Of a DNA stretch of 54,086 nucleotides, positions 4,319-30,140 are shown piece after piece. The DNA lies in NCBI GenBank assembly GCA_023254905.1, contig JALRKF010000167.1, positions 1 through 54,086 of the forward strand, written 5' to 3'. Every line of letters begins with the position of its first letter. Position 1 is the stretch's first letter. The stretch is from Crocinitomicaceae bacterium. GTDB lineage: Bacteria; Bacteroidota; Bacteroidia; Flavobacteriales_D; Crocinitomicaceae. The translations under genes and the position numbers were made by a program. The notes beneath the pieces were generated by a model that saw only the letters and a list, made by a program, of their open reading frames with translations, had not been told where the DNA came from and ran no database searches.

Positions 4319-4346
4319 TTTGTAAATATTCTTTCCGCTACTTTTG
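4319..4346 (+). promoter_or_regulatory. Promoter of the menA-menC operon
   Basis: TTTG (4319-4322), a 16-nt spacer and TACTTTTG (4339-4346) match the Bacteroidota promoter pattern, with a slightly short spacer. Only 4 nt separate the -7 element from the menA ATG at 4351, so the mRNA should be leaderless or nearly so. No Shine-Dalgarno sequence can fit. Confidence 0.65.
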
Positions 4347-4350
4347 TATT

Positions 4351-5265
4351 ATGGCGCGGATAAAAACATGGTTAAAAGCAGCCCGATTGCGCACATTGCC
4401 TCTATCCCTATCGGGCATTGTCATTGGTTCTGCGATAGCATTTAAAAATGGTTACTGGGATCCAACTATTTTTTGGCTTGCTATGCTAACAACCGTACTT
4501 TTTCAAATTCTATCCAATTTTGCCAATGATTATGGAGATAGTCAGAAGGGCACAGATAATGAATATCGAATCGGTCCCGAACGAACTGTACAATCTGGAG
4601 CCATCTCTTTGAAAAAAATGCAATTTGCTGTAATTTCGTTGAGTGTCATAAGCATCTTATCTGCAGGCGCATTGATATATTTCGGAACAAAACAAATGCC
4701 GGTCGAATTGATATGGCTGTATTCAATTCTTGCCATACTTTGTGTTGTCGCTGCGATAACTTACACAGTGGGTAAAAAAGCATACGGATATTCTGGATTT
4801 GGTGATGTTATGGTCTTCTTATTTTTTGGTCTTGTGAGTGTTCTAGGTGTTTATTCACTTTATGCAAAGTCTTTTGATGCAGCTAATATTTTACCTGCGA
4901 TTAGTATTGGGTTATTGAGCACCGCAGTGCTCAATTTGAATAACATGCGTGACTTTGCGAACGATAAAAATTCAGGTAAAGTGACCTTTGTAGTTAAGAT
5001 TGGTCTGCATAACGCAAAGATTTATCACGCGTTCTTGATTTTTCTGGCTTTCCTATCGATGCTTATATTTTTGCTTGGGCTCAATATTTCACTTTTATAT
5101 TTGTGTCTTCTTCCGTTTATTATTTTGGCATATCATCAGCGAAAGGTAATGGTCACTAGAGAAGAAAAATACTTTGATCCGGAATTAAAAGTAGTAGCCT
5201 TATCAACATTCAGTATTTCATTATTGTTTGCTCTGCTTATTGCATTTATTTTGCCTCTATTATGA
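4351..5265 (+). CDS. menA: 1,4-dihydroxy-2-naphthoate polyprenyltransferase
   Basis: A membrane prenyltransferase of 304 residues that joins a polyprenyl chain to 1,4-dihydroxy-2-naphthoate, the first membrane step of menaquinone synthesis. The first Asp-rich motif is NDYGDSQKGTD at 59-69 (NDxxDxxxGxD of the UbiA superfamily). The second is NMRDFANDKNSGK near residue 200. About eight hydrophobic helices follow the usual UbiA layout. The next gene is the menaquinone enzyme menC, overlapping by ATGA, which supports MenA over other UbiA enzymes. A perfect 9-bp inverted repeat lies inside the coding region at 4914-4935. Confidence 0.93.
   Translation: MARIKTWLKAARLRTLPLSLSGIVIGSAIAFKNGYWDPTIFWLAMLTTVLFQILSNFANDYGDSQKGTDNEYRIGPERTVQSGAISLKKMQFAVISLSVISILSAGALIYFGTKQMPVELIWLYSILAILCVVAAITYTVGKKAYGYSGFGDVMVFLFFGLVSVLGVYSLYAKSFDAANILPAISIGLLSTAVLNLNNMRDFANDKNSGKVTFVVKIGLHNAKIYHAFLIFLAFLSMLIFLLGLNISLLYLCLLPFIILAYHQRKVMVTREEKYFDPELKVVALSTFSISLLFALLIAFILPLL
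4914..4935. repeat. Perfect 9-bp inverted repeat inside menA
   Basis: ATTGAGCAC (4914-4922), a CGCA loop and GTGCTCAAT (4927-4935) form a perfect 9-bp palindromic hairpin within the menA coding sequence, at codons for LLSTAVLN. There is no following T-run, so it is not a terminator. It may be chance. Confidence 0.5.
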
Positions 5266-6275
5266 AGCTAAGGTTTACCAAAAAAACATTTTTATTTAAA
5301 CGGCCTAGTGGCACAAGTCGTGGCATTTTAAAAGAAAAGCACTCTTGGTTCATCGAAATATGGAATGCGACTAATCCGAAGATCATTGGATTCGGAGAAT
5401 GCAGTATTATTCCAGGACTTTCACCAGAATACATCTCAATAGAACAATATGAAAAAAAGCTGAAAGAGCTATCCGCAAATCCAACCATTGATATTTCCGA
5501 GTGGCCTTCGATAAAATTTGGATTGGAATGTGCATTACGAGACCTCGAAAACGGCGGTAAACGAATCTATTTTAAAAATGATTTTGTTAAGGGTACTCTT
5601 AAATTACCCATCAATGGCTTGGTTTGGATGGGTGATGAAAATTTCATGCGTGAGCAAATAGAGCAAAAATTGAGAGAGGGGTTTAGAACAATTAAGATGA
5701 AGATTGGTGCTATTGATTTTGATACAGAAATCAAACTTCTGAAATCGATCAGAAGTCGTTATAACAAGAATCAGATTACACTTCGCGTGGATGCGAATGG
5801 TGCATTCTCACCTGAAGAAACAAAAGAAAAACTCACAATTTTAAATCAACTGGATATCCATTCCATAGAGCAGCCAATTAAACAAGGTCAATGGTCGAAG
5901 ATGCGTGAATTGTGTGAGCAAACACCTCTTCCCATAGCACTAGACGAAGAACTCATTGGAATCAATAGACGACTTGAGAAGGTCAAGCTATTGGATACTA
6001 TTCAACCCCAATATATTATACTTAAACCTAGTTTACATGGCGGGATTTCAGGTACTCAGGAATGGATAGAACTCGCAGAGGAAAGAAATATTTCATGGTG
6101 GATCACATCGGCTCTTGAGTCCAATATTGGATTAGATGCTATTTGTCAGCTCGCTGCTGAATATCAGAACCCATTACCACAAGGACTGGGAACAGGTTCT
6201 TTGTATGTCAACAATATCAAAAATGATCTTATTGTTGAACAAGGTTACATTTATAAAACCCGAAAAAATTCTTAA
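5262..6275 (+). CDS. menC: o-succinylbenzoate synthase
   Basis: An enolase-superfamily dehydratase of 337 residues that converts SHCHC to o-succinylbenzoate in menaquinone synthesis. All catalytic positions are visible: KMK with Lys145/Lys147, RVDANG with Asp177, EQP with Glu203, DEE with Asp228, and Lys255 in ILKPSLHGG as the second base. The N-terminal capping domain is present. The start codon overlaps the menA stop as ATGA (5262-5265), so the two are translationally coupled. Context separates it from muconate cycloisomerase or dipeptide epimerase. The other men genes are not in this window. Confidence 0.92.
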   Translation: MKLRFTKKTFLFKRPSGTSRGILKEKHSWFIEIWNATNPKIIGFGECSIIPGLSPEYISIEQYEKKLKELSANPTIDISEWPSIKFGLECALRDLENGGKRIYFKNDFVKGTLKLPINGLVWMGDENFMREQIEQKLREGFRTIKMKIGAIDFDTEIKLLKSIRSRYNKNQITLRVDANGAFSPEETKEKLTILNQLDIHSIEQPIKQGQWSKMRELCEQTPLPIALDEELIGINRRLEKVKLLDTIQPQYIILKPSLHGGISGTQEWIELAEERNISWWITSALESNIGLDAICQLAAEYQNPLPQGLGTGSLYVNNIKNDLIVEQGYIYKTRKNS

Positions 6276-6296
6276 ATTAGTTCAAAACCAAAACAC

Positions 6297-6725
6297 ATGA
6301 AACTTCTCTCGATTACACTTTTAGCAGTAACAACCCTATCATTTTTTGGATGTTCAAAATGGAAGAAAGACAATAAAGATGCTTCCTACTACTATTCAAA
6401 AGATTATAAATTGAGTCAAGGGGAAATTTTGGGAGTCGATATTGAAGAAATCGATATGCTATACACTGTATTTTTTTATGAAGGAAAAAACTTGAAATAC
6501 AAGCTTGTGGCTGAAAAAAAAGTAAATGACTCCAATAAGAATGAAGTTCTATCTTACGAATACGGTTCAGTAGAAGTTGATAAAAACTATACTCTACTTT
6601 TCACTCCGACGGTTAATGGTAATACAAGCTATACTGGTGCTTTCGAAACAAAGGATAAAAAAGCCTTTGATGCGAACTTGCCAGATTTTGAAGGCAGAAC
6701 TCTTCGATTTATCCTAAAAAAGTAA
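6297..6725 (+). CDS. Small predicted lipoprotein, unknown function
   Basis: A protein of 142 residues with a lipoprotein signal peptide: KLLSITLLAVTTLSFFGC, with the lipobox Cys at residue 19. The mature part is a charged, Tyr- and Lys-rich beta-rich domain without any motif I recognise. It starts 21 nt after menC and has no promoter element of its own, so it is probably read with menA-menC. Position alone does not link it to menaquinone. Likely anchored in the outer or inner membrane facing the periplasm. Confidence 0.75.
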   Translation: MKLLSITLLAVTTLSFFGCSKWKKDNKDASYYYSKDYKLSQGEILGVDIEEIDMLYTVFFYEGKNLKYKLVAEKKVNDSNKNEVLSYEYGSVEVDKNYTLLFTPTVNGNTSYTGAFETKDKKAFDANLPDFEGRTLRFILKK

Positions 6726-6901
6726 GACCAAATTCCTTCAGGATTTTTAGCCCATTGACTTTTGAATTAATCGAACCGACTCAATAGTGACACCAACACT
6801 TTATTCGTAAGTTGAGTAGCAATGGAAAGTCCTTTTCCAAGTTTTGAGTGTTCAAATTGCATCGAAATAATGTAAAAATATTTTACTAAAAATCTTATTT
6901 G

Positions 6902-6909
6902 TACTTTAG
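6902..6909 (+). promoter_or_regulatory. Possible -7 element before the Cys-rich gene
   Basis: TACTTTAG differs from TAnnTTTG at one position and lies 24 nt before the ATG at 6934. No convincing upstream TTG is present at the expected distance, so this is a tentative call. Confidence 0.3.
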
Positions 6910-6933
6910 CGAAAACCAAAAATAATACTGAAA

Positions 6934-7311
6934 ATGAAAAATTTAATTCGAATTGTTTTAGTTCTATTTCTAACGGGTTTAAGTTCATCAGTGAATGCAG
7001 ATTTTGACCCTAAGGATGATTCAAATTATATAGTTTACACCGTTAAGGAACTACGCGAGATCTATGGAATTGATAATGTGGAAAAGCTCTGCAATGTAGA
7101 GTTATCAGAAAATGAGGTTGTGCTGATATTAGCGAGTCCATGTAATGGTGAGATGCCTTGTGGTGGTGCTTTGGCAAAAGCAAGACAGGAGGCTCAGAAA
7201 TTAGCTAATGATTGTTGTTGCATTCGCTTTTATGGAGTTATCTGTTGTGATCCACAAAATGGAGCTTTACTTGCGATTGATGCAATTGCAACTCCAACAA
7301 TTTGCAACTAA
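6934..7311 (+). CDS. Small secreted Cys-rich protein, unknown
   Basis: A protein of 125 residues with a signal peptide (about residues 1-22, ending SSVNA) and nine cysteines in the mature 103 residues, including a CCC and a CC cluster plus a C-N-G-E-M-P-C-G loop. The density is unlike the neighbouring proteins and suggests disulfides or metal binding in the periplasm or outside the cell. There is no T9SS sorting domain, lipobox or known motif. The gene stands alone, more than 120 nt from each neighbour. I do not recognise a family. An odd cysteine count leaves at least one thiol free or available for an intermolecular bond. Confidence 0.72.
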   Translation: MKNLIRIVLVLFLTGLSSSVNADFDPKDDSNYIVYTVKELREIYGIDNVEKLCNVELSENEVVLILASPCNGEMPCGGALAKARQEAQKLANDCCCIRFYGVICCDPQNGALLAIDAIATPTICN

Positions 7312-7432
7312 CACCAATTGTATCAACACATACTTGTCTCAGAAGTGTAGTTGTGCGCAATAATTGATTTTAGTCTTCCTCCCAGATCAGCAGTAACATT
7401 TGATGTAGGAAATCAAGGACAAGTTTGTTTAG

Positions 7433-7876
7433 ATGAGATATACTCCGATGAAAAAAATTAGAGTAATATACACAAGCCAAGCAGCAAAGCATTTTAGCCA
7501 GAGGGATCTGTTAGACTTGCTTCATGATTGCCGTGCATACAATTCACTGGATTCAATTTACGGATTTCTATACTACAAGGACAATATTTTCTTCCAAGTC
7601 CTTGAGGGAGAGACCAAATCGGTTGAGGGCTTACTAGATCGAATAGAAAAAGATCCTCGCCATTTTAATCTTAAGATTTATTTCAAAAAATCGGTTGAAA
7701 ATTATTTATTTTCCAATTGGTCAATGGGCTGTATAGAATTCAACAACCCCAGATTAAGTTTAATTCCTAGCCTGAAAGGAGAACTGGAATCAAAAGAAAA
7801 TATCGAACGGATAATTAATAATCTTCCTGAAATAACCTCACTACTAATATCGAATCCTGAACTAAATTTGCAATAG
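7433..7876 (+). CDS. Stand-alone BLUF-domain blue-light sensor
   Basis: A BLUF photoreceptor of 147 residues that would bind FAD and respond to blue light. The chromophore residues are all present with exactly the spacing of AppA: Tyr13, Asn37, Gln55, Trp96 and Met98, in motifs RVIYTS, FFQVLEG, DPRH and WSMG. About 45 residues follow the core, forming helical caps, with no output enzyme such as EAL, so it is a short BLUF acting through a partner. ATG at 7433; a second in-frame ATG at 7448 is possible. CAAGTTTG, one mismatch from a -7 element, ends 5 nt before the first ATG. Confidence 0.9.
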   Translation: MRYTPMKKIRVIYTSQAAKHFSQRDLLDLLHDCRAYNSLDSIYGFLYYKDNIFFQVLEGETKSVEGLLDRIEKDPRHFNLKIYFKKSVENYLFSNWSMGCIEFNNPRLSLIPSLKGELESKENIERIINNLPEITSLLISNPELNLQ

Positions 7877-7991
7877 TTGAGTCATTAAGGTATCCAAATT
7901 TTTGGCTATATCTTTTTAAATTTTTGATTTGTAAGATTTTACCAATTTAATTCCGTATATTCCAATTTAAGCCGCTATTATTTATATTACA

Positions 7992-8366
7992 ATGAATAAG
8001 ATTATTCATGATAAGTTTACCATTAAACTAATTAAAGAAAATTTTCTCTCACTTGAAATACATCAAAATCAGGTTATTGAAGCTGATGATATTCATCTAA
8101 TCTATAAAGGGTATGAGAAATTGATTGGAGAGAATGAATATGTTGTTGCTGTATATGGAAATAACTTTTCTTCAATTTCAGCTGAAGCTAGAGAAATTGC
8201 AGCGAGCAAATACGCATCAAAAAAAAGGAAAAAAGTAGCGCTGATATCCAATAATCTTGCCAATATCTTGATCGTTAAATTCTTTATTAATTGGAACAAA
8301 CCTCAAACTCCTATTAAAATATTTAAATCTGAAGAAAGTGCGTATGAATGGTTAGAATCTGATTGA
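7992..8366 (+). CDS. SpoIIAA-like / STAS-related small protein
   Basis: A cytoplasmic protein of 124 residues of a type common in Bacteroidota and distantly STAS- or SpoIIAA-like. It has a beta-rich start (FTIKLIKENFLSLEI), a central conserved S-A-E-A-R-E-x-A-A-S segment, and a closing W-N-K-P ... P-I-K-I-F-K-S-E-E-S-A-Y-E-W-L pattern. These proteins have no proven function; some are thought to bind lipids or partner proteins. It follows the BLUF gene by 115 nt on the same strand, which leaves open that it is a partner, but an A+T-rich gap separates them. No convincing promoter or terminator could be assigned. Confidence 0.65.
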   Translation: MNKIIHDKFTIKLIKENFLSLEIHQNQVIEADDIHLIYKGYEKLIGENEYVVAVYGNNFSSISAEAREIAASKYASKKRKKVALISNNLANILIVKFFINWNKPQTPIKIFKSEESAYEWLESD

Positions 8367-8443
8367 TCTACCTTGTAAATATTGATCAAAACATCCGAAA
8401 TCAACAAACAACGCAAGCCCCAAATTAATTGAATTAGCTGTAT

Positions 8444-9433: not shown

Positions 9434-9510
9434 TGTTTTAGTTTTCTTGATTTATGCCGTTTTCAGATAATTTTTGAATTATTCTGTGTTAAAATGTGCA
9501 ATAATTAATA

Positions 9511-9542
9511 TTGAATATTTTCAAGCTATTCAACTATCTTTG
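9511..9542 (+). promoter_or_regulatory. Promoter of the DUF808 gene
   Basis: TTG at 9511-9513, a 21-nt spacer, then TATCTTTG at 9535-9542. The -7 element ends 5 nt before the ATG at 9548, leaving no room for a ribosome-binding site; the mRNA should be leaderless or carry only one or two leader bases. Confidence 0.65.
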
Positions 9543-9547
9543 ATACC

Positions 9548-10408
9548 ATGGCCTCAGGAATTTTAGGATTACTAGACGATATCGCAGTGCTCATGGATGA
9601 AGTTGCAACAATGAGTAAGGTTGCAACAAAGAAGACAATAGGTATTTTGGCTGATGATTTAGCTGTGAATGCCGAGAAGGCCTCAGGTTTTGTGTCAAAC
9701 CGTGAATTACCTGTGCTTTGGAAATTGACGAAAGGTTCAATTATGAACAAGATCATCATCTTACCGGGCATCTTTTTGTTAAGTGCTTTTTTTCCTGCAG
9801 CAATAGTCCCTATACTTATCTTTGGAGGTATTTACCTATCTTTCGAAGGAGCATTAAAAGTATACGAGTCAATCTTTTATAAGGGTGCAAAAAAGAAATT
9901 GAACCCGGAAAATATGTCTGAAAAAGAAGCTGCCGAATACGAATCCAAACGTATTAAATCAGCAATTCTCATCGATTTTATTTTGTCCATCGAAATCATC
10001 ATAATCACATTGGGTATAGTGTTGGATGAGCCATTAAAGGTGCAGATCCTTGTTGTGTCATTTGTAGCTATCCTAGCCACAATTGGAGTTTACGGAATCG
10101 TTGCTTTACTCGTTCGGATCGATGATGCCGGATACAGTTTGGTTGCTTCAAGTGACAGTAAATTTCTTCAAGGTCTAGGTAAAGGTCTAGTGAGGTTATT
10201 ACCGATCATTATTCGCGTATTAAATGTAATTGGAACATTGGCTATGATCCTAGTTGGTGGAGGGATTTTCGTACACAATCTTGATTTTGTTCATGGCCTT
10301 GTAAACTGCATTCCTGATCTTTTATCAGAGTTCTTGGTCGGACTCGTTGCAGGGTTCACTTTTTTGATGACCTACCTCAGTATCAAAGTAATATTCAAAA
10401 ATCGATAA
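9548..10408 (+). CDS. DUF808 family inner-membrane protein
   Basis: A membrane protein of 286 residues matching the DUF808 (YedI-like) family: MASGILGLLDDIAVLMDEVATMSK and VATKKTIGILADDLAVNAEK at the N terminus, then RELPVLWKLTKGS, followed by about five or six membrane segments. The function of the family is not known. The opening segment is amphipathic and soluble; the rest is hydrophobic. It ends 115 nt before the stop of the convergent tex gene, and the hairpin just downstream is oriented to stop tex rather than this gene. Confidence 0.85.
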   Translation: MASGILGLLDDIAVLMDEVATMSKVATKKTIGILADDLAVNAEKASGFVSNRELPVLWKLTKGSIMNKIIILPGIFLLSAFFPAAIVPILIFGGIYLSFEGALKVYESIFYKGAKKKLNPENMSEKEAAEYESKRIKSAILIDFILSIEIIIITLGIVLDEPLKVQILVVSFVAILATIGVYGIVALLVRIDDAGYSLVASSDSKFLQGLGKGLVRLLPIIIRVLNVIGTLAMILVGGGIFVHNLDFVHGLVNCIPDLLSEFLVGLVAGFTFLMTYLSIKVIFKNR

Positions 10409-10413
10409 TGAAA

Positions 10414-10435
10414 AACCTCCCGTTTCCAGGAGGTT
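10414..10435 (-). terminator. Rho-independent terminator for tex
   Basis: AACCTCC (10414-10420) and GGAGGTT (10429-10435) form a 7-bp stem with an 8-nt loop. Read on the minus strand the stem is followed by TTTTT, the direction in which tex is transcribed. On the plus strand there is no T-run, so it is a poor stop for the DUF808 transcript, although the hairpin could act on both. Confidence 0.7.
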
Positions 10436-10523: not shown

Positions 10524-12629
10524 TTATCGAAGTCTTAATCCAATACGTTTTCTTGTTGCGTCAACTTCCATTACTTCTACCTCAACATGCTCATGAAGAC
10601 TTACGATTTCCGCGGGGTCTTCCACATAATGGTCAGCCATATTCGATTTATGAATGAGTCCGTTTTCCTTGATGCCAATATTTACAAACGCTCCAAAATT
10701 TGTAATATTCGTAACGATTCCAGCGATCTTCATCCCAGTAATCAAGTCTCCAATTTCCTTTACTCTGTGGTCGAACTCTAGCACTTTCACTCTCTGACGC
10801 GGGTCTCTTCCAGGCTTTTTAAGTTCCTTTACAACATCATCAAATGTATAGCCATCTACATAGTCAAAATCTTCCCTCTTCAATTTGTCAAGTAAATCGA
10901 GATCACCAATAAGTTCCGCACTTGAAACACCGACCTTCTTCGCCATTGATTCTACGAGCTTGTAACTCTCCGGGTGTACCGATGAATTATCGAGTGGGTT
11001 TTCTCCTTTCACTTTTAGAAATCCTGCACATTGCTCAAATACTTTTCCTCCCAATCTCGGAATATCCTTGAGTTGCTTTCTGGTTGCGAACCCCCCTAAC
11101 TTCGTCCTGTGCTCAACAATACTAGTAGCCAATGATGGTCCTAAACCAGAAACATAACTCAATAAGTAAGGAGATGCTGTATTAAGATCAACACCAACCT
11201 GATTTACACAAGATACGACTACACTATCCAATTCCCTTTTCAATAGATTTTGATCAACTTGATGCTGATACTGACCTACCCCTAATGACTTCGGATCTAT
11301 CTTCACCAATTCTGCCAATGGATCCATCAATCTTCTTCCTATAGAAACAGAGCCACGTACAGTAACATCGTAAGCAGGAAACTCCTCCCTGCCAATTTTA
11401 CTCGCCGAATAAATAGATGCACCATCCTCACGTACCACATAAACCTCAACATCCTGATTGAACCGGATAGATTTTACAAATCTTTCAGTTTCTCTTCCGG
11501 CCGTACCATCTCCGATGGCAATTGCCTCAATCTTATGGGCTTGTGCAAGCTGTGCAAGTTTTGATTTTGCCTTACCAATATCTTTCTGTGGCGGATGCGG
11601 AAAGATCGTTGTATTTTCTTTTAACTCACCGCTTTTATCCAAACAAACTACTTTGCAACCAGTTCTAAACCCAGGATCGATCGCAAGGATACGTTTGTTA
11701 CCCAATGGCGGTGCCAACAATAGTTGACGCAAGTTTTTACTAAATACACGAATAGCAGATTGATCCGCCTCTAATTTCTTTTTGTTCCAAGCTTCACTTT
11801 CCAATGAAGGTCGCAATAAACGTGAGTACGCATCTTTACATGCTTTCCCGACCACCTTTGAACATGCTCCATTTCCTTTCACGAAAAACCGTTCAATAAT
11901 CTCATTAGCCTCATCCGTCTCGGGTCGAGATGTTACCTTCAATATGCCTTCATTCGCACCTCTTGATATTGCCAAAAAACGATGCGACGGACAATTTTTC
12001 AAACGTTCTGAATGATCAAAGTAGTCCTTGTATTTCTGCCCCTCTACCTCTTTTCCTTTAGCAACTTTAGCTGTAATTAAAGATCTGTTTTCGAACAGTT
12101 TCCTTAGCCTATCACGAAGATTCTCATTCTCGTTAATCCATTCTGCAATGATATATTTAGCTCCTTCAATGGCATCTTCCGGTTCAGTGAGTTCTCCGCG
12201 TAAAAAGGGTTCAGCTGTTTGCACAGGGTCTCCTTCACGTTGCGACATGATCATTTTTGCAAGTGGTTCCAATCCATTCTTACGCGCTAATTCTGCCTTA
12301 GATGAGCGTTTCTTTTTAAATGGAAGATAAATATCTTCCAGTTTATCTGTGTCGAAACAATTATGAATTCGTTCCATCAATTGATCGTCAAGTTTGCCTT
12401 GCTCATCAATTGCTTTTAAGATCGCTTCTTTCCGCTTTTCTAAATCGTTAAACTGCTGAGACAACTTTTTGATCTGCTCCAATCCAACCTCATCCATTCC
12501 TTCCGTTTGCTCCTTCCTGTAGCGCGCAACAAATGGAATCGTTGCTCCTTCATCAAACAACTTAACTACGTTCACGATTAGTCTTTCCGACCGTTGAGAA
12601 AACTCTTTAATAAATTCAATCTTGTTCAT
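10524..12629 (-). CDS. tex: Tex-family transcription accessory protein
   Basis: A nucleic-acid-binding protein of 701 residues of the Tex family (conserved, linked to transcription and RNA handling). Domain order: an N-terminal helical Tex region (FVARYRKEQTEGMDEVGLEQI), a YqgF/RNaseH-like centre (ILAIDPGFRTGCK, AIAIGDGTAGRETERFV), helix-hairpin-helix repeats (VNQVGVDLNTASPYLLSYVSGLG) and a C-terminal S1 domain (GIVTNITNFGAFVNIG). The ATG at 12629 (MNKIEF) is chosen because a TATTTTTG element ends 5 nt upstream; the longer reading frame to 12698 would start upstream of its own promoter. Divergent from the heme lipoprotein gene. Confidence 0.94.
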   Translation of the reverse strand: MNKIEFIKEFSQRSERLIVNVVKLFDEGATIPFVARYRKEQTEGMDEVGLEQIKKLSQQFNDLEKRKEAILKAIDEQGKLDDQLMERIHNCFDTDKLEDIYLPFKKKRSSKAELARKNGLEPLAKMIMSQREGDPVQTAEPFLRGELTEPEDAIEGAKYIIAEWINENENLRDRLRKLFENRSLITAKVAKGKEVEGQKYKDYFDHSERLKNCPSHRFLAISRGANEGILKVTSRPETDEANEIIERFFVKGNGACSKVVGKACKDAYSRLLRPSLESEAWNKKKLEADQSAIRVFSKNLRQLLLAPPLGNKRILAIDPGFRTGCKVVCLDKSGELKENTTIFPHPPQKDIGKAKSKLAQLAQAHKIEAIAIGDGTAGRETERFVKSIRFNQDVEVYVVREDGASIYSASKIGREEFPAYDVTVRGSVSIGRRLMDPLAELVKIDPKSLGVGQYQHQVDQNLLKRELDSVVVSCVNQVGVDLNTASPYLLSYVSGLGPSLATSIVEHRTKLGGFATRKQLKDIPRLGGKVFEQCAGFLKVKGENPLDNSSVHPESYKLVESMAKKVGVSSAELIGDLDLLDKLKREDFDYVDGYTFDDVVKELKKPGRDPRQRVKVLEFDHRVKEIGDLITGMKIAGIVTNITNFGAFVNIGIKENGLIHKSNMADHYVEDPAEIVSLHEHVEVEVMEVDATRKRIGLRLR

Positions 12630-12634
12630 TGAAA

Positions 12635-12642
12635 CAAAAATA
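12635..12642 (-). promoter_or_regulatory. -7 element of the tex promoter
   Basis: TATTTTTG on the minus strand (12642 down to 12635), a perfect TAnnTTTG, followed by TTTCA and the tex ATG at 12629. This fixes the true tex start and implies a leaderless message. An upstream TTG at the standard distance is not obvious. Confidence 0.6.
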
Positions 12643-14053: not shown

Positions 14054-14496
14054 TAGAATTTCGACCACCAAGAAATGAAAAGGAGTGGGAGAACTATTAT
14101 GACCTCCGTTATCGAATTCTCCGGGAACCATTAGGTAAAGAAAGGGGATCTGAAAAGAATGAAGGCGACGAATTAGGAGAACACATTTGCCTTTATGACA
14201 ATGGGATTTTAAAAGCCATTGCGCGATTAGACAAAACAGATAAGCCTCAAGTCGCTCAAGTAAGATTCGTTGCAGTTGAAAAAGCACAACAGGGAATAGG
14301 TTACGGAAGAATGATCATGAAGGCTGTCGAGGAGATTTCAGAACAACGTGGAGATATTAAAATGATCCTTCATGCACGAGATTATGCCGTTGATTTTTAT
14401 CTCAAATTAGGATACAAAAATCTCGAAAAAAGCTACTTATTATTTGGTGTGCTACAGCACTATCTAATGGAGCGGATATATAAATCACTTTCGTGA
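14050..14496 (+). CDS. GNAT family N-acetyltransferase
   Basis: A GNAT-fold protein of 148 residues. The acetyl-CoA-binding motif A is QVRFVAVEKAQQGIGYGRMI (Q-x-x-G-x-G), followed by a beta-4/alpha-4 region (LHARDYAVDFYLKLGYK), which is typical. The N-terminal REPLGKERGSEKNEGDE resembles the ElaA group. The acceptor is unknown. ATGA overlap with the CoA-transferase indicates coupling. Its 3' end overlaps the convergent membrane-protein gene by 12 nt, so the two transcripts are complementary at their ends. Confidence 0.85.
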   Translation: MIEFRPPRNEKEWENYYDLRYRILREPLGKERGSEKNEGDELGEHICLYDNGILKAIARLDKTDKPQVAQVRFVAVEKAQQGIGYGRMIMKAVEEISEQRGDIKMILHARDYAVDFYLKLGYKNLEKSYLLFGVLQHYLMERIYKSLS

Positions 14497-15048
14497 TTTC
14501 AATCGATCATCCACTTTCTTCGTAATAAACTTAAAAAGTTGTTGTGCATCTTTTTCATTGAGCTTTCTACCAAATTTTATCACTTTACCCATGTAATCAA
14601 ATTCAATACGTTCCCCTCCTCGGATCCAAGGTGAGCTCTCCCATGCTGATTGAAATGAACGCTCTTCTGGAATCTGTAATCGTATCTTTGTAATATTCTC
14701 AACGTAGTAATTGGAAGCACGGCCGTATCCTTTAATAGACTTTTTATAGATGAGTTCTGTTTCGTTAATCTTAAGATGCTCTTTCCCCCAGATCATCCAG
14801 AAAAATGAGCGGCTCACACGAATTGCATAGTACCCCCAGAAGGTGATAAACACAAAGAGGATCACTTTTTCCTGATCCGTAAGATTCAAAGAGAAAATAG
14901 ACCAAATGACAATTCCTCCGATCATGTACCACATCATTACCCAGGCACCCATCAACGCAGATATCCAGCCCTTTACTTCCGGGTCAATGATAATCGTCGT
15001 GCGATTCTTATCATCCACAAAACTTATGCGCTCTCCGATCCATTTCAT
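14485..15048 (-). CDS. Two-helix membrane protein of unknown function
   Basis: A protein of 187 residues with two predicted membrane helices (about residues 28-52 and 58-80) and a C-terminal soluble beta-rich domain of about 100 residues, with a long strand-forming pattern reminiscent of PH-like domains (ITKIRLQIPEERS, RIEFDYMGKVIKFG). No family is recognised. The start at 15048 (MKWIGERI) is chosen because a TACTTTTG element ends 5 nt upstream; a longer frame to 15102 would run through the promoter and the upstream terminator. It overlaps the convergent GNAT gene by 12 nt. Confidence 0.75.
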   Translation of the reverse strand: MKWIGERISFVDDKNRTTIIIDPEVKGWISALMGAWVMMWYMIGGIVIWSIFSLNLTDQEKVILFVFITFWGYYAIRVSRSFFWMIWGKEHLKINETELIYKKSIKGYGRASNYYVENITKIRLQIPEERSFQSAWESSPWIRGGERIEFDYMGKVIKFGRKLNEKDAQQLFKFITKKVDDRLKSRK

Positions 15049-15053
15049 GCATA

Positions 15054-15083
15054 CAAAAGTATTCAAAATAAAAAAGGGAGCAA
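15054..15083 (-). promoter_or_regulatory. Promoter of the two-helix membrane protein gene
   Basis: On the minus strand TTG (15083-15081), 19 nt, TACTTTTG (15061-15054), then TATGC and the ATG at 15048. This is a perfect match to the Bacteroidota promoter with near-leaderless spacing. The TTG sits in the loop of the terminator hairpin of the upstream T9SS gene, and the 19-nt spacer contains that hairpin's distal stem arm and T-run. Confidence 0.75.
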
Positions 15084-21997: not shown

Positions 21998-22005
21998 TAA
22001 ATTTG
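21998..22005 (+). promoter_or_regulatory. -7 element of the FabK-like/M16 operon
   Basis: TAAATTTG, a perfect match to TAnnTTTG, ends 5 nt before the ATG at 22011. The upstream TTG is not clear. The spacing implies a leaderless first gene for this three-gene operon. Confidence 0.55.
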
Positions 22006-22010
22006 ATGCC

Positions 22011-22967
22011 ATGGAACAAAACAGAATCACATCACTATTCAATATTAAATACCCGTTAATCCAAGCGGGTATGATCTGGTGTTCAGGATGGAAATTAGCA
22101 GCAGCGGTATCTAATTCAGGAGGTTTGGGGATTATTGGCTCAGGATCTATGTATCCTCAGGTATTGGATGAACACATTCGAAAATGTAAAGATGCAACAG
22201 ATAAGCCGTTTGCAGTGAATTTACCGATGCTTTATCCAGACATTGATAAGCATATCGAGACAATTATAAAGCACAAGGTCCCCATCGTTTTTACGAGTGC
22301 TGGTAATCCCAAGACGTGGACGAACCATTTGAAGGGACATGGTATTAAGGTTGTACACGTTGTTTCTAGTTTAAAATTTGCATTGAAAGCACAAGATGCA
22401 GGTGTTGACGCCGTTGTTGCTGAAGGCTTTGAAGCAGGAGGGCACAATGGTCGTGACGAAACAACAACTTTATGTCTTATACCAATAGTAAAGGAAAAAC
22501 TGAACATTCCATTGATCGCTGCAGGTGGAATTGGAAATGGACGTGCAATGCTGGCAGCGATGAATCTAGGCGCTGATGCGGTGCAGGTAGGAAGTCGTTT
22601 TGTGGCCTCACTCGAGTCAAGTGCGCATGATAATTTCAAAAATGCGGTGGTTGATGCAAAAGAAGGTGATACACAACTTACCTTGAAAGAGATAACACCT
22701 GTTCGCTTAATAAAAAATGACTTTTACAAACAGGTTTTAAACGCCTACGAGGGTGGCTCCAGTGTGGATGAGCTGAAGACATTACTCGGCCGTGGAAGGG
22801 CTAAAAAAGGTATGTTTGAGGGCGATATGATCGAAGGTGAATTGGAGATCGGTCAGATTTCAGGATTGATTCATGACATTAAACCTGCAGCAGAAATTGT
22901 ATATGATTTCATTAAAGAATATGAAATAGCTCTCAATGAGCAAAATTCATCTAAGTTCAATTTTTGA
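22011..22967 (+). CDS. FabK-like enoyl reductase / nitronate monooxygenase
   Basis: An FMN-dependent TIM-barrel protein of 318 residues. Motifs are GMIWCSGWKLAAAVSNSGG, AEGFEAGGHNGR, PLIAAGGIGNGR and GADAVQVGSRFVAS. The C-terminal region (GQISGLIHDIKPAAEI) is closer to FabK, the alternative enoyl-ACP reductase, than to nitronate monooxygenases, and closer to FabK than the paralogue at 3.3-4.3 kb. Which reaction it performs is not decided by sequence. It overlaps the next gene as TGATG and probably forms an operon with two M16 peptidases. Confidence 0.87.
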   Translation: MEQNRITSLFNIKYPLIQAGMIWCSGWKLAAAVSNSGGLGIIGSGSMYPQVLDEHIRKCKDATDKPFAVNLPMLYPDIDKHIETIIKHKVPIVFTSAGNPKTWTNHLKGHGIKVVHVVSSLKFALKAQDAGVDAVVAEGFEAGGHNGRDETTTLCLIPIVKEKLNIPLIAAGGIGNGRAMLAAMNLGADAVQVGSRFVASLESSAHDNFKNAVVDAKEGDTQLTLKEITPVRLIKNDFYKQVLNAYEGGSSVDELKTLLGRGRAKKGMFEGDMIEGELEIGQISGLIHDIKPAAEIVYDFIKEYEIALNEQNSSKFNF

Positions 22968-25461: not shown

Positions 25462-25529
25462 TGTGAAAATCTTTTTTTTACTTGATCAATTGATTTGAAT
25501 AGTTTTATGTTGCATGAAGCTGAAATAGA

Positions 25530-25841
25530 ATGACAAAAGCACAAGAAGATAAAATTCAAAGTCTACTCGAACAGTATAATGATATTTTACTAGTTTCGAT
25601 GCGATTAGCCATTGCTGAAGATTTCATAAATCTTGTAATTGTAAATCGTGAGGACACTGATTTTGAGCTTTCCGAATTACTTCAAAATAAAGATGATTTA
25701 TCCAATTACATTATGCGAGAATTTTTAAGACAGAATAGTTCATCTGTTGTTGATCAACTTAAAGGAATGGATGAACCAATTCCAGAGCTCAAAAAACGGT
25801 TCCGGTCAAAAAAAAATCAAACGGATAAAAAGACAACCTAA
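25530..25841 (+). CDS. Small acidic/basic hypothetical protein
   Basis: A protein of 103 residues, helical, acidic in the middle and strongly basic at the C terminus (KKRFRSKKNQTDKKTT). No membrane segment, signal peptide or known motif. The ATG at 25530 is plausible, but there is no good ribosome-binding site. It lies 69 nt after the second M16 gene and just before a T9SS gene whose reading frame begins within it. No function can be assigned. The first half (LLEQYNDILLVSMRLAIAE) could be a coiled or helix-pair domain. Confidence 0.55.
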   Translation: MTKAQEDKIQSLLEQYNDILLVSMRLAIAEDFINLVIVNREDTDFELSELLQNKDDLSNYIMREFLRQNSSSVVDQLKGMDEPIPELKKRFRSKKNQTDKKTT

Positions 25842-25896
25842 AGGTTCTACCAGCGTTTTCATACTACGTATGAATATTATCCGTTATTATTGTTTC

Positions 25897-28800
25897 ATGA
25901 AACAACTTCTCCTTATAATTATCGTTATACTGAGCTTTCAATCGAGGGCTTCACATGTAATGGGAGGAGATATAACCTGGACCTGTCAAGGCGGAGATTA
26001 TGTCTTTCAATTGGTGTTTTATCGTGATTGTAACGGTCCAGACATCAATACTATAAGTGCACAACTTAAAGTTTGGAATCATCCAACAGTTAGTCAGATT
26101 ACAGCTAATTTTATCAGTAGAGAGGATCTTTCACCAATCTGTACTGAGGTTCCAAGTGGACCATTAGCCCTGAATTGTGGAGCCGGACCAAATGCTGGAA
26201 ATGGGGTCGGTGCGATTGAAAAGGTAGTTTATCGATCTGCGCCAATCGCATTGGCAGGTGTACCGCCTATGGAAGGTTGGGTAATTACATACGAAGATTT
26301 TTCAAGAAGTAACTCGTTGACAAATATTACACTCCCATCAAGTGTTGGAATAACATTAAGTGCAATTATTTACAATGTACCCAATAATGCGGGAGGATGC
26401 ATTGACAATTCACCCCAATTCCTTCAAGATCCTTACTTTGTAAGTTGTGTTGGAGATACCTACCAGTATAATATGAATGCTATTGATCCGGACCTGGACT
26501 CCTTAGATATCTCTTTTGGTATTCCTTACGATCATTTTCCGTCAGCCACAACATATAATCCTGGAATAAGTCCGGCAGCAATAAATTTTGAGTCTGGTTT
26601 TACCTATGATTCTCCTACTCCTGGAGTTACAATGAATGCTGGAAATATCCCTGCAGCAGTGGATCCTTTAAGTGGTAATCTGACCTTTCTTTCGAATAAT
26701 ATTGGAAATTTCAATGTGAAGATCGTGGCTCGTTCTTTCCGTAATGGTGTTCTCATATCTCAAGTTGAACGAGAAATGCAACTTGTTGTTGCAACTTGCT
26801 CTGGCAATAATAATGCTCCCGTGATTAATGGTCCTTTCGGAGGACTCTTCGAAACTACGGTCATTGCTGGAACTCCGGTTAATTTCACGCTGACATCAAC
26901 CGATTTAGAACTACTTCAGGATGGATCTCCACAAAGTAATATTCTTACAGCAACAGGACCAATGTTCGGAACACCATATACGAGTAATACTGGCTGTGCA
27001 ATATCCCCATGTGCCAGTCTTGACAGCAATCCGTCCATTACAGGAGTTCAAGGAGTGAGTGCAGATTTTAGTTGGCAAACAACCTGTGATCATCTGGTTA
27101 ATCCCCAAGGCTATGCTGCAGATTTGATTCCATACCACTTTGTTTTTAAGGTTCAAGATGACTATTGTGCAGTTCCTAAAGTGAAATATGCTACAATCAC
27201 CATTAATGTTGTGAATCCAGGCGTGATCCAAGCTCCTTTGATTAATTGTATTCAAGGTGGAACAAATGGAGATATCACAATAAGCTGGGATCCCGTTCTT
27301 GATCCCTTTGGATCTTTTGTGAGCTATGAAGTTTACTCCGTACAAAATGGTCTGGAAGGAACCATTACAAATTTAAATGCGGGTTCGTTGACGATTCCAA
27401 ATGTTACGCAACAAAATGACTATTACATTGCTGTTAATTCTGGCTGCAACGGAAATACTCAACGCTATTCTGATACGATCTCAAACATATTTTTAGATGT
27501 TACGAATCCAGGAAATGGAACTGCTGTTCTCCAATGGAATGATCCAATTTTACAGGCTTTAAGTACTATGGATGACAAGTATTACATCTATCGGGAATAC
27601 CCGAATGGAACTTGGATTTTAAGGGATAGTACTTCCTTTGGTGTAACAAACTATATAGACACAATTGATATCTGCTCGGCTTTTTTAAATTATCAAATAA
27701 TTCTCCAAAATACACCTTGTAATTTCACCTCAAACATTGATGGTGATAATTTCGAGGATATGATTAATCCTGATATTCCCGTAATATCCTATGTTTCAAT
27801 TGACACTTTGTCTGGAGACGTTCAACTTTCGTGGAATCAAAATGCACAACCGGACACTTATGGATATGTGATTTATGTTATGGATAATAATGGTTTTATC
27901 ATTGAATTAGATACTGTTTGGGGGGTAGGAAGTACTTCCTACTCTTACAACACACCGATTGATGGTCCAATGACCTATTCAGTAGCAGCATTTGACTCGT
28001 GCTGGACATCAACAATACCCCCAACTTACCAGACCTCAGCTAAAGCAGAATTGCATACTACCATGTTTGTGCAATCGTCCTTGAATATTTGTGATCGCTC
28101 TGTTGCACTTAGTTGGAGTGATTATTTGGGTTGGGCGACAGTAGAATCCTACAAAATTTTTGCACATAAGGCCGGTGAACCTTGGCTTGTTGTTGGAACG
28201 ACATCCTCTACATCATTTACTGTTGAGGCAGATCAGTTATTTAATTATTGCTTCGTTGTCCAGGCAAATCATGCGGATGGCCTAATTTCATTTTCAAACA
28301 TGGTCTGCGAGTACATAAATGCCGCAACTACACCTGCATTTAACTACCTCACCACTGCAACAGTTAACGATGAAAATGTTGAGCTTAGATATTATGTGGA
28401 TGCTACAAATGTCTCACAGATCTCCTTACAAAGGATGGATGAAACAGGTTCTTTTGCGGAAATAGCTATTCTTCAAGGAATTTCCTCATTCATAAATTAT
28501 GTTGATGTGAATGCAGAAGTGAATAGATATTCATATATCTATCGTGCTCAGGTATACGATAGCTGTGGTTCACTTGGCGCAATATCCAATGAGGCAAAAA
28601 CAATTTTGTTAGAAATTGACTACGATGAAGTTCTCAAGGAAAACTATCTGCAATGGTCACCTTACCGGGATTTTGATGGCTCGCTAATTTATTATAATAT
28701 CTACAGAGGGATTGATGGTATATTCGATCCAATTCCTTTGGCAACGGTCGGGAATAATCAATGGTCTTACGTTGATAATACGATGGAAATTTTATCTACA

Positions 28801-29175
28801 GGCCGCATTTGCTACAAGGTAGAGGCTGTTGAGAGCACTAATAGTTATGGTCTTGCTGAGACCAGTAAGTCCAACGAAGTTTGTGTTGTTGTTCCTCCAT
28901 CCATCTATATACCAAATGCTTTCTTCCCGGAAGGTCAGAATAAACTGTTCTACCCTGTTATTCGCGATTTTGACCCAGTCGAATACGAGTTTATTGTATT
29001 TGATAGATGGGGAACAGAATTATTCTACAGTAATGATCCTACTGAGGCTTGGGACGGAGTGATACAGAAAACAGGAAAAATGGCGACACCAGGAACTTAT
29101 CTTTACGTACTCATCCTTAATGACGGAAATGGCGAAGAGGTTGTTACTCGCGGTCATGTTTCTTTAATACAATAG
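25897..29175 (+). CDS. T9SS type B cargo with Fn3-like repeats
   Basis: A secreted protein of 1092 residues. Signal peptide in MKQLLLIIIVILSFQSRAS; the ATG at 25897 is chosen because the frame upstream to 25747 lies inside another gene. An N-terminal domain opens with SHVMGGDITWTCQGGDYVFQL, common in surface proteins of Cytophagia and Flavobacteriia. Repeated fibronectin III-like modules follow (ISWDPVLDPFGSFVSYEVYS and QLSWNQNAQPDTYGYVIYV types). A type B sorting domain ends it (PNAFFPEG, VFDRWGTELFY, AWDGVIQK). Probably an extracellular or surface-attached adhesin. Confidence 0.88.
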   Translation: MKQLLLIIIVILSFQSRASHVMGGDITWTCQGGDYVFQLVFYRDCNGPDINTISAQLKVWNHPTVSQITANFISREDLSPICTEVPSGPLALNCGAGPNAGNGVGAIEKVVYRSAPIALAGVPPMEGWVITYEDFSRSNSLTNITLPSSVGITLSAIIYNVPNNAGGCIDNSPQFLQDPYFVSCVGDTYQYNMNAIDPDLDSLDISFGIPYDHFPSATTYNPGISPAAINFESGFTYDSPTPGVTMNAGNIPAAVDPLSGNLTFLSNNIGNFNVKIVARSFRNGVLISQVEREMQLVVATCSGNNNAPVINGPFGGLFETTVIAGTPVNFTLTSTDLELLQDGSPQSNILTATGPMFGTPYTSNTGCAISPCASLDSNPSITGVQGVSADFSWQTTCDHLVNPQGYAADLIPYHFVFKVQDDYCAVPKVKYATITINVVNPGVIQAPLINCIQGGTNGDITISWDPVLDPFGSFVSYEVYSVQNGLEGTITNLNAGSLTIPNVTQQNDYYIAVNSGCNGNTQRYSDTISNIFLDVTNPGNGTAVLQWNDPILQALSTMDDKYYIYREYPNGTWILRDSTSFGVTNYIDTIDICSAFLNYQIILQNTPCNFTSNIDGDNFEDMINPDIPVISYVSIDTLSGDVQLSWNQNAQPDTYGYVIYVMDNNGFIIELDTVWGVGSTSYSYNTPIDGPMTYSVAAFDSCWTSTIPPTYQTSAKAELHTTMFVQSSLNICDRSVALSWSDYLGWATVESYKIFAHKAGEPWLVVGTTSSTSFTVEADQLFNYCFVVQANHADGLISFSNMVCEYINAATTPAFNYLTTATVNDENVELRYYVDATNVSQISLQRMDETGSFAEIAILQGISSFINYVDVNAEVNRYSYIYRAQVYDSCGSLGAISNEAKTILLEIDYDEVLKENYLQWSPYRDFDGSLIYYNIYRGIDGIFDPIPLATVGNNQWSYVDNTMEILSTGRICYKVEAVESTNSYGLAETSKSNEVCVVVPPSIYIPNAFFPEGQNKLFYPVIRDFDPVEYEFIVFDRWGTELFYSNDPTEAWDGVIQKTGKMATPGTYLYVLILNDGNGEEVVTRGHVSLIQ

Positions 29176-29177
29176 AT

Positions 29178-29185
29178 TAACTTTG
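29178..29185 (+). promoter_or_regulatory. -7 element before the heptosyltransferase-like gene
   Basis: TAACTTTG, a perfect TAnnTTTG, starts just after the upstream stop codon region and ends 4 nt before a GTG start at 29190. This supports the GTG as the true start and implies a leaderless transcript. Confidence 0.5.
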
Positions 29186-29189
29186 TTCC

Positions 29190-30140
29190 GTGAATCGGAT
29201 TCTTATAATTCAAACCGCCTTTCTTGGGGATGTAATTCTCGCTACCCCAGTCATCTCAGAACTGAAGAGAATCTTTCCTGATGCAATAGTTGACATTCTT
29301 GTAAAAAGTGGTAATGAAAGTCTTTTAGAGAATAATCCCAATTTGAATAGAATTCATGTTTTCAGTAAGAAAAGTGGGAAATTAAAAGGTATTTTTTCAC
29401 TCATTAAAGCATTCAGAAAAAATAAATACGATCTAATTATTAATCTCCACCGTTTTGGTTCGAGTGGAATCATTGCCGGTCTATCGGGAGGTAAAAAAGT
29501 TATTGGATATAAGAAAAACCCCTTTAGTTTTCTTTATTCAGAAAAGTTTGAACATAGAATTGGTGATGGCACGCATGAAGTAGAGCGCAATCTTTCTCTG
29601 ATTGAACATTTAGGGGGAAGGAACTATTCGCGGCCAGAACTATTTCCTTCAGAAGCAGATCTTGAAGTGGTGAAACCATTTTCCAACGGTGCATACGTAA
29701 CAATGGCACCCGCATCTGTTTGGTTCACAAAACAACTACCGAAAGAAAAATGGATTGAACTGATAGATCAACAATCTACAGATCATCTGGTATATTTATT
29801 AGGTGCACCTAGCGATAACGAATTGTGTAATGATCTAGTATCAAACGATAAAGTAATTAACCTTGCAGGAAAACTTTCGTTATTACAATCCGCCGCGTTG
29901 ATGAAGAATGCAAAAATGAATTTTGTTAATGATTCAGGTCCTTTACATCTTGCAAGTTCTATGAATGCTCCAACTACGGCATTCTTCTGCTCAACTGATC
30001 CTAGCTTCGGTTTTGGACCGCTAGCAGAAAACAGAACGGTAAAGGAAGTTAAGAATCTCGATTGTCGTCCTTGCGGACTGCACGGGCATAAAAATTGTCC
30101 TGAAGGACATTTCAAATGTGGTCACGGCATCCCTCTTTAA
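29190..30140 (+). CDS. Glycosyltransferase family 9 (ADP-heptose:LPS heptosyltransferase-like)
   Basis: A GT9-family protein of 316 residues starting with GTG at 29190. The N-terminal RILIIQTAFLGDVILATPV and FVNDSGPLHLASSMNAP are characteristic of WaaF/RfaF-type heptosyltransferases. It would add sugars to the inner core of LPS at the cytoplasmic face. Whether the donor is ADP-heptose in this organism is not certain. A Cys-rich C-terminal segment (LDCRPCGLHGHKNCPEGHFKCG) contains four cysteines typical of part of this family. It overlaps the convergent GNAT gene by 4 nt. Confidence 0.88.
   Translation: MNRILIIQTAFLGDVILATPVISELKRIFPDAIVDILVKSGNESLLENNPNLNRIHVFSKKSGKLKGIFSLIKAFRKNKYDLIINLHRFGSSGIIAGLSGGKKVIGYKKNPFSFLYSEKFEHRIGDGTHEVERNLSLIEHLGGRNYSRPELFPSEADLEVVKPFSNGAYVTMAPASVWFTKQLPKEKWIELIDQQSTDHLVYLLGAPSDNELCNDLVSNDKVINLAGKLSLLQSAALMKNAKMNFVNDSGPLHLASSMNAPTTAFFCSTDPSFGFGPLAENRTVKEVKNLDCRPCGLHGHKNCPEGHFKCGHGIPL

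Follow-up and report, generated by a model that had tools for sequence, protein, structure and literature searches.

Background

How do the ribosomes of Bacteroidota, which work without Shine-Dalgarno (SD) sequences, find their start codons? In the window, i.e. the whole stretch of 54,086 nt of Crocinitomicaceae DNA analysed here, a first-pass annotation had noticed seven starts sharing a promoter-like box TAnnTTTG (or its TTCG form) followed by 4-5 nt and the start codon. Leaderless mRNAs had been predicted from this arrangement, with leaders of 0-2 nt. In Flavobacterium johnsoniae the promoter -7 element is described as TAHHTTTG, lying 4-5 nt from the transcription start site (PMC6847099), and if this published distance holds, the expected leader becomes 0-1 nt. 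Here we ask whether the boxes act as promoters that set the 5' end of the mRNA on the start codon, how general the arrangement is, and in which genes it is kept.

Results

Boxes at the seven starts

A check of the sequence found exact TAnnTTTG 4-5 nt before the start codon at six of the seven starts, and the seventh, that of a flavoprotein gene, reads TATATTCG-N4-ATG, one letter off, so the shared arrangement stands. A codon-usage start caller blind to promoters chose all seven start codons. The genes, all predicted to be leaderless, are as follows. The gene named menA in the first-pass annotation encodes a UbiA-family prenyltransferase (Pfam PF01040; 4351..5265, plus strand), and its box TACTTTTG (4339..4346) ends exactly 4 nt before the ATG at 4351. 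Divergent from it on the minus strand is the gene of a nitronate-monooxygenase-like flavoprotein (PF03060; 3298..4275), with the variant box TATATTCG (4280..4287) 4 nt before the ATG at 4275. The DUF808 gene (PF05661; 9548..10408, plus strand) has TATCTTTG (9535..9542) 5 nt before the ATG at 9548; tex (Tex_N, Tex_YqgF and S1 domains; 10524..12629, minus strand) has TATTTTTG (12635..12642) 5 nt before the ATG at 12629; a gene earlier labelled as that of a membrane protein (no Pfam match; 14485..15048, minus strand) has TACTTTTG (15054..15061) 5 nt before the ATG at 15048; and a gene of the FabK-like/nitronate-monooxygenase family (PF03060; 22011..22967, plus strand) has TAAATTTG (21998..22005) 5 nt before the ATG at 22011. 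Finally, a family-9 glycosyltransferase gene (PF01075; 29190..30140, plus strand) has TAACTTTG (29178..29185), directly behind the preceding stop codon and 4 nt before the GTG at 29190. The GTG lies 14 nt past that stop codon and cotranscription from upstream is also likely; the ortholog in genome G014 likewise has an exact box 4 nt before a GTG start.

No purine-rich SD sequence was seen by eye 5-10 nt before any of the seven starts in the window. Counted back from the start codon, the box itself fills positions -12 to -5 in genes with 4-nt spacing, where an SD sequence would lie, and these positions are also those of the F. johnsoniae promoter numbering (PMC6847099). A BLUF gene had been put forward as a weaker eighth case; in its sequence CAAGTTTG-N5 the initial T is missing and a G occupies a position from which promoters exclude this base (see below), and the gene was therefore left out of the count.

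Spacing between box and start codon

The spacing histogram, proposed in the first-pass annotation, covered 1533 genes in 12 samples, from the own genome and 11 others. Exact boxes were found 4 nt before the start codon in 41 genes, at 5 nt in 14 and at 6 nt in 10, compared with a mean of 2.7 genes (maximum 7) for permuted motifs at 4-6 nt. Spacings of 7-14 nt were sparse (21 genes over eight positions) and the counts climbed again from 15 nt, with 103 genes at 15-22 nt. The sparse zone is not empty, permuted motifs giving a mean of 5.2 (maximum 11) over the same 7-14 nt; part of these sites may be wrong starts. The 4-nt peak persisted when the 5'-most ATG was used as start, and internal in-frame ATGs, with a box at 4-6 nt in 13 of 10,224, had no peak at 4 nt. 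The predicted sharp peak and its excess over shuffled controls were thus both found.

The own assembly is a draft of 167 contigs, 83% complete. In the 510-kb sample taken from it, 22 of 444 genes have an exact box at 4-6 nt (29 permuted motifs: mean 1.0, maximum 2). The density of such sites is about 30% higher there than in the whole genome (0.080 vs 0.062 per kb) because the contigs of the sample were picked with the match list in view. Whole-genome counts, which are unaffected by the choice of contigs, stand at 140 sites for a spacing of 4-5 nt, 84 for 9-10 nt and 127 for 15-16 nt. Samples from the 11 other genomes, picked independently of matches (1089 genes), gave 29 genes at 4 nt, 9 at 5 nt and 5 at 6 nt. 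Gene samples of G173, G236, G100 and f36 (0, 0, 3 and 1 at 4-6 nt, respectively) had been drawn with match lists in view and were not used; G173 and G236 were resampled as contiguous 200 kb from base 1, and G100 and f36 were left out.

In whole-genome counts for the own genome and 59 relatives, 53 of 60 genomes had more sites at 4-5 nt than at 9-10 nt, the excess being absent in G001, G040, G041, G047, G050, G052 and G058. The phylum tables comprise 394 genomes, of which 109 were tabulated, namely 99 from the own class or closer and 10 from f36; among the 99, own genome included, sites at 4-6 nt exceeded those at 8-10 nt in 94, and no such excess was found in the four genomes of family f22 or the one of f23, both of the same class. 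The first-pass annotation had spoken of many genes. The class exists, but the window is richer in it than the rest of its own sample (box at 4-6 nt in 6 of 48 vs 16 of 396 genes, Fisher p 0.023) and "many" therefore overstates the genome, in which the predicted leaderless genes are a minority.

Promoter hallmarks

In 967 genes of the own genome and eight relatives, a G in the free positions occurred in 4 of 42 boxes spaced 4-6 nt from the start and in 19 of 149 boxes spaced 15-60 nt, compared with 202 of 573 boxes lying within ORFs of 600 nt or longer (Fisher tests against the ORF-internal sites, 3e-4 and 3e-8, respectively). F. johnsoniae promoters with predicted start sites are reported to exclude G likewise at the free positions (PMC6847099). 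A pyrimidine preceded the start codon (position -1) in 37 of the 41 genes with 4-nt spacing vs 832 of the 1492 others. The start codon of a leaderless mRNA is generally AUG or GUG, and the 65 predicted leaderless genes start with ATG (60) or GTG (5) and never with TTG, which is used by 118 of the remaining 1468. The spacing peak, the exclusion of G and the pyrimidine before the start give the boxes the look of promoters that start transcription on the start codon itself, which supports the earlier prediction of leaderless mRNAs.

As to the -33 TTTG motif, no clear TTG peak was found upstream of the box in either the leaderless or the longer-leader class; TTG clusters 15 nt before the leaderless boxes in 6 of 42. 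The -33 motif is described as weak in F. johnsoniae too (PMC6847099), so that a lacking -33 signal is no bar to a sigma-ABfr promoter.

Genes locked in the predicted leaderless arrangement

Orthologs of menA were taken within the genus only, and only where they stand beside the nitronate-monooxygenase gene; 4 of 30 loci, with no menA start within them, were dropped. Exact TAnnTTTG lies at exactly 4 nt in 25 of the 26 genes (own gene included), the box of the 26th being one letter off, and the N-termini align at the same codon in all 26. The upstream sequences fall into 20 clusters of less than 60% identity, in 19 of which the box is exact, and the 38 nt further upstream have a median pairwise identity of 0.32. 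For the nitronate-monooxygenase gene (1 of 30 loci dropped for too little upstream sequence), 27 of 29 genes, with the own one among the 29 and the two misses kept in the counts, carry TAnnTT[TC][GA] at 4-5 nt. The TTTG form accounts for 3 of these 27 boxes, and the own variant TATATTCG is common to most orthologs. The TTCG/TTCA of the flavoprotein is a variant of the sigma-ABfr -7 element TAHHTTTG.

Judged by these upstream sequences, both genes are locked at 4-5 nt across the genus. Because the predicted leaderless state is kept genus-wide, the arrangement is probably under selection, which we infer as the reason for its retention in menA.

Genes with variable predicted leader state

For tex and the FabK-like gene, the 30 best loci were compared; matches existed in 60 and 58 genomes, respectively. 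Among the 30 best tex loci (of 60 genomes), own locus included, the exact box is at 4-5 nt in 8, at 14-60 nt in 17 and at 7-13 nt in none; five have no exact box within 60 nt, four of these with a one-letter-off box at 4-5 nt. N-termini align at the same codon in 28 of these 30, and in six distant named Bacteroidota tex loci inspected by eye no box was found at 4-6 nt. Identity between leaderless and leadered tex orthologs (30 best loci of 60 genomes) is 0.279 when anchored on the box, hardly above the 0.24-0.27 of shifted alignments, so a shared promoter is not demonstrated there. Among the 30 best FabK-like loci (of 58 genomes), own included, five have the exact box at 4-5 nt and 20 have it at 14-60 nt, 7-13 nt is again empty, and five have no exact box within 60 nt; here the 32 nt upstream of the box have an identity of 0.515 between the 5 leaderless and the 20 leadered members when aligned on the box, vs 0.21-0.30 when shifted and 0.297 when aligned on the start codon.

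The DUF808 start codon is conserved (MASG) and aligns in all 12 loci with a readable start (1 of 13 dropped as partial); by eye, none of the 11 other orthologs has a box at 4-6 nt, and DUF808 is predicted to be leaderless only in this species among the orthologs examined. In 104 reciprocal ortholog pairs the leaderless arrangement was shared in 3, paired with a longer-leader box in 6 and with no box in 5. The arrangement is usually not conserved, and conservation as a general rule was rejected: it holds for menA and the nitronate-monooxygenase gene and fails for DUF808, tex and the FabK-like gene; this mixture agrees with the original description of a class of genes rather than a uniform rule.

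Discussion

Four things were observed directly in this work: the peak in spacing, the sparse zone beyond it, the hallmarks of promoters and the patterns among orthologs. They are very probably explained by sigma-factor promoters placed so that transcripts start at the start codon and yield leaderless mRNA. The boxes would be promoters of the Bacteroidota housekeeping sigma factor (-7 element TAHHTTTG), each -7 element ending 4-5 nt before the start codon; if transcription starts where the Flavobacterium rule places it, RNA polymerase would begin at, or one base ahead of, the A or G of the start codon. Translation would then be initiated on the 5'-terminal AUG or GUG with initiator tRNA, the ribosome making no SD contact, a kind of contact that appears to be rarely used in this phylum anyway. 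Spacings are mostly 4-6 nt (no leader) or at least 15 nt, which corresponds to a leader of roughly 10 nt upwards; lengths of about 2-9 nt are seemingly disfavoured. In the FabK-like gene, perhaps also in tex, species have switched from one state to the other while keeping a promoter of the same kind.

The main competitor, which we consider improbable, accepts the boxes as real promoters and derives most mRNA from promoters further upstream or from read-through, the leaderless form being minor. The glycosyltransferase gene, so close behind its neighbour, would suit it, as would the 11 of 65 leaderless genes with under 30 nt between them and the upstream gene and the second exact box at 53 nt in the own menA. 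Against it, the 24 other menA genes with an exact 4-nt box have no second exact box within 60 nt, and 54 of the 65 leaderless genes are well separated from the upstream gene vs 993 of the 1468 others. There is still less probability, very little in our judgement, that the motif is not a promoter but a translation signal in the mRNA, a U-rich element contacting S1 or the ribosome. Its position suits an mRNA element, and a role in initiation in Bacteroidetes is ascribed to other upstream bases, namely adenines (PMC10783764); however, the exclusion of G is the same as in boxes at 15-60 nt, and among the 30 best FabK-like loci (of 58 genomes) the same upstream sequence accompanies the box whether 5 or 16 nt from the start. 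That wrong start codons or chance matches produced the pattern is hardly credible, for although the window is AT-rich (38% GC), with many chance TAnnTTTG, and richer in boxes than the rest of its sample, the peak is absent with permuted motifs and at internal ATGs, the starts were called independently of the motif, and ortholog N-termini coincide in menA, in tex (28 of the 30 best loci) and in DUF808.

Returning to sigma-factor promoters at the start codon, we suggest, tentatively and with rather less than even confidence, a two-state leader code (leader absent, or at least about 10 nt) together with a small gene set, menA and the nitronate-monooxygenase gene its clearest members, held leaderless by selection across the genus, perhaps for a 70S or IF2-dependent translation that answers a different signal from that of other mRNAs; the latter gene's variant box TAnnTT[TC][GA], which lies next to a conserved TGTGCGTACATA-like site, would be a regulated version. 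Leaderless genes kept by selection, and orthologs in leaderless and leadered forms, could serve as natural paired substrates in tests of start-codon finding, and a box at 4-6 nt or at least 15 nt is a simple rule that can aid start annotation in the phylum.

Comparison with known systems

Leaderless mRNAs have already been reported in the phylum, so their kind is known. In Flavobacterium psychrophilum they make up 5.5% of 890 CDSs with mapped starts (PMC9723704); that species and ours share the phylum, the TAnnTTTG -7 box and a leaderless minority, measured there by TSS mapping and predicted here (PMC9723704). The passages concerned neither name the leaderless genes of that species nor speak of their conservation. 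Leaders are the rule in the accounts of F. johnsoniae, with 87% of leaders longer than 10 nt and 13% of at most 10 (PMC6847099), and of Bacteroides thetaiotaomicron, with about 3.7% of 5' UTRs shorter than 10 nt (PMC7366714); the relevant passages of these two accounts do not describe a sharp 4-nt peak, a sparse zone or conserved leaderless genes, as found here. An AT-rich bias at -20 to -10 of non-SD genes, prominent in Bacteroidetes among others, was read as a possible sign of leaderless genes, with other causes also possible (PMC5397173); that survey averages over genes and, in the passages concerned, names no element or gene. Among the titles and abstracts listed by searches of open-licence PMC, none dealt with menA as a conserved leaderless gene or with a gap in leader lengths in Bacteroidota, and the locked leaderless set and the two-state leader length are possibly new. 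The TA-led leaderless genes of Zheng et al. 2011 follow the same logic, a promoter element near the start codon meaning no leader (PMC3160421). With the Pribnow-like TANNNT, leaderless genes were reported there in 1 of 37 Bacteroidetes/Chlorobi genomes, and other promoter types would by the authors' own statement escape the survey (PMC3160421); our results suggest that a survey based on TANNNT undercounts the leaderless genes of Bacteroidota.

Spacing of the -7 element at start codons

In the first-pass annotation, seven starts of the window were described as having the -7 element of the Bacteroidota housekeeping sigma factor (TAnnTTTG, hereafter the box) only 4-5 nt before the start codon. 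The exact box was found at six of them: it ends 4 nt before the start of menA (4351..5265, plus strand) and the GTG start of the family-9 glycosyltransferase gene (29190), and 5 nt before the starts of DUF808 (9548), tex (12629), the FabK-like gene (22011), and a gene without Pfam match (14485..15048, minus strand; start at 15048). The seventh, the nitronate-monooxygenase-like flavoprotein gene (3298..4275, minus strand, divergent from menA), has TATATTCG at 4 nt instead; its TTCG ending is backed as a box variant by the flavoprotein orthologs, since 27 of 29 genes (own gene included) have TAnnTT[TC][GA] at 4-5 nt, three of them with TTTG. The BLUF gene, proposed as a weaker eighth case, was withdrawn, as CAAGTTTG fails to qualify as a box. 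All seven starts were also chosen by a start caller using codon usage only, and thus were not selected to suit the motif. The flavoprotein and the FabK-like protein (22011-22967), about 33% identical, are PF03060 paralogs, both predicted here to be leaderless (box or box variant at 4-6 nt). A DUF4442 protein (PF14539), not a regulator as first supposed, is encoded behind the flavoprotein gene (2847-3317).

The own-genome sample (510 kb in 16 contigs, 444 genes) has the box at 4, 5, and 6 nt in 12, 5, and 5 genes, at 7-14 nt in only three in total, and at 15-40 nt in 64; with 29 permuted motifs, the count at 4-6 nt averaged 1.0 and never exceeded 2. Since these contigs were picked with the match list in view and are ~30% too rich in sites (0.080 vs 0.062 per kb), the whole-genome counts carry the weight: 140 sites at 4-5 nt, 84 at 9-10 nt, and 127 at 15-16 nt. 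Set against roughly 2000 genes (scaled up from 444 genes in 510 kb), the 56 surplus sites put the share of genes with a perfect box plus ATG at about 3%, an estimate that would be roughly doubled by counting one-mismatch boxes (21 of 444 genes at 4 nt vs 3-4 per position at 8-14 nt). Leadered genes of the sample (box at 15 nt or more) often have short predicted leaders: the commonest spacing is 15-17 nt (9, 7, and 6 genes), i.e., leaders of about 10-13 nt.

The sharp peak at 4 nt is general beyond the own genome. Samples were drawn from eleven other genomes (1089 genes): for eight, no match list had yet been seen; for G347, sampling followed a regular grid; for G173 and G236, one contiguous stretch was taken starting at base 1. 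Together they have 29, 9, 5, and 4 genes at 4, 5, 6, and 7 nt, 14 in total between 8 and 14 nt, and 65 between 15 and 22 nt. The 12 pooled samples contain 41, 14, and 10 genes at 4, 5, and 6 nt, and the peak stays when the 5'-most ATG is used as start (43, 17, and 10). No 4-nt peak is seen at internal in-frame ATGs (13 of 10,224 at 4-6 nt). In whole-genome pattern counts, sites at 4-5 nt outnumber those at 9-10 nt in 53 of 60 genomes (own plus 59 relatives; no excess in the other seven), and sites at 4-6 nt outnumber those at 8-10 nt in 94 of the 99 genomes tabulated from the class or nearer. The five without excess at 4-6 nt (G288, G296, G409, G449, and G405; ratios 0.88-0.94) belong to two families of the class, f22 (four genomes) and f23 (one), in which the short-spacing habit of the remaining tabulated class is lost or absent. 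Ten genomes of family f36, of another class in the phylum (e.g., G194, G202, and G439), have 932 sites at 4-6 nt vs 324 at 8-10 nt by the same counts, the strongest excess among tabulated families (ratio 2.9, up to 5.6), and may use leaderless mRNAs far more.

Promoter hallmarks and proposed mechanism

Judged by their sequence features, the boxes at 4-6 nt are promoters. G is rare at the two free box positions of sites at 4-6 nt (4 of 42) and at 15-60 nt (19 of 149), compared with sites inside ORFs (202 of 573); in Flavobacterium johnsoniae, promoters derived from RNA-seq start sites are reported to have no G there and a start site 4 or 5 nt from the box (PMC6847099). By that rule, a 4-nt spacing would put the start site on the first start-codon base or the next. 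A pyrimidine just before the start codon (37 of 41 genes with 4-nt spacing vs 832 of 1492 others) fits such a start site, and TTG starts are found in 0 of 65 leaderless genes vs 118 of 1468 others (Fisher 0.008).

Most likely, transcription by the housekeeping polymerase would begin at the start codon, with the ribosome beginning on the 5'-terminal AUG or GUG. The data show the spacing, the promoter hallmarks, and the ortholog patterns; from these we infer the start-site position and leaderless translation. The 7-14 nt zone is sparse, not empty (21 sites vs a permuted mean of 5.2, 12 samples), and from its scarcity leaders of about 2-9 nt may be poorly translated.

Conservation among orthologs

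Orthologs show three behaviours of the predicted leaderless state: locked, varying, and local. The locked case is menA, which forms a locked, predicted leaderless pair with the flavoprotein gene alongside. In 25 of 26 menA genes (own plus 25 orthologs of the genus, 56-65% protein identity to own), TAnnTTTG ends exactly 4 nt before the start; the one exception has TACTTTTA at 4 nt. The exact box is kept in 19 of 20 upstream clusters, and the 38 nt upstream of it have a median pairwise identity of 0.32; we infer that selection holds the spacing constant. menA was readable only beside the flavoprotein gene and within the genus; elsewhere no menA with a start was seen. The 75-nt divergent space between the two genes (4276-4350) contains TGTGCGTACATAA/G or a near form in relatives (own form at about 4299-4310), with a match somewhere in 21 of 30 loci (L221-L250); this near-palindrome, placed by eye just upstream of the flavoprotein's variant -7 box, is possibly an operator.

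The varying cases are tex and the FabK-like gene, counted in the best 30 loci each of 60 and 58 genomes with a match: the exact box is at 4-5 nt in 8 and 5 loci, at 14-60 nt in 17 and 20, at 7-13 nt in none, and missing in 5 and 5, respectively. Upstream identity between leaderless and leadered FabK-like loci is 0.515 when box-aligned, 0.21-0.30 when shifted, and 0.297 when start-aligned, so one and the same promoter appears to have gained or lost about 11 nt of leader. No such upstream homology was seen in the box-aligned comparison of tex loci (0.279). DUF808 is local: its MASG start is kept, but of 12 loci with readable start this one alone has the box at 4-6 nt (by eye). The glycosyltransferase gene shares box and GTG start with its ortholog in the genome G014. 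Of the 104 reciprocal ortholog pairs whose start is the same, three share the leaderless state, six pair it with a longer leader and five with no box, and so constancy of the kind shown by menA is not general.

Relation to known systems

The initial observation is confirmed, and its leaderless reading is supported at the sequence level. A search of titles and abstracts in open-licence PMC gave no match for the sparse leader-length zone or the locked menA/nitronate-monooxygenase pair, and that conserved, predicted leaderless pair is the point of real interest. Leaderless mRNAs or very short leaders are already known as a Bacteroidota minority, and their frequency here is ordinary for the phylum in view of earlier reports: about 3.7% of 5' UTRs are given as below 10 nt in Bacteroides thetaiotaomicron (PMC7366714) and 87% of leaders as above 10 nt in F. 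johnsoniae (PMC6847099), and two comparative papers (PMC5397173, PMC10783764) point toward leaderless initiation within the phylum or within Flavobacteriia. A TANNNT survey reports leaderless genes in one of 37 Bacteroidetes/Chlorobi genomes and states its own blind spot (PMC3160421). The commonest predicted leaders of the own leadered genes (about 10-13 nt) are shorter than the 23-nt mode described for B. thetaiotaomicron (PMC7366714). The predicted about 3% of leaderless genes, roughly doubled with one-mismatch boxes, is of the same order as the mapped 5.5% of leaderless mRNAs reported for F. psychrophilum (PMC9723704).
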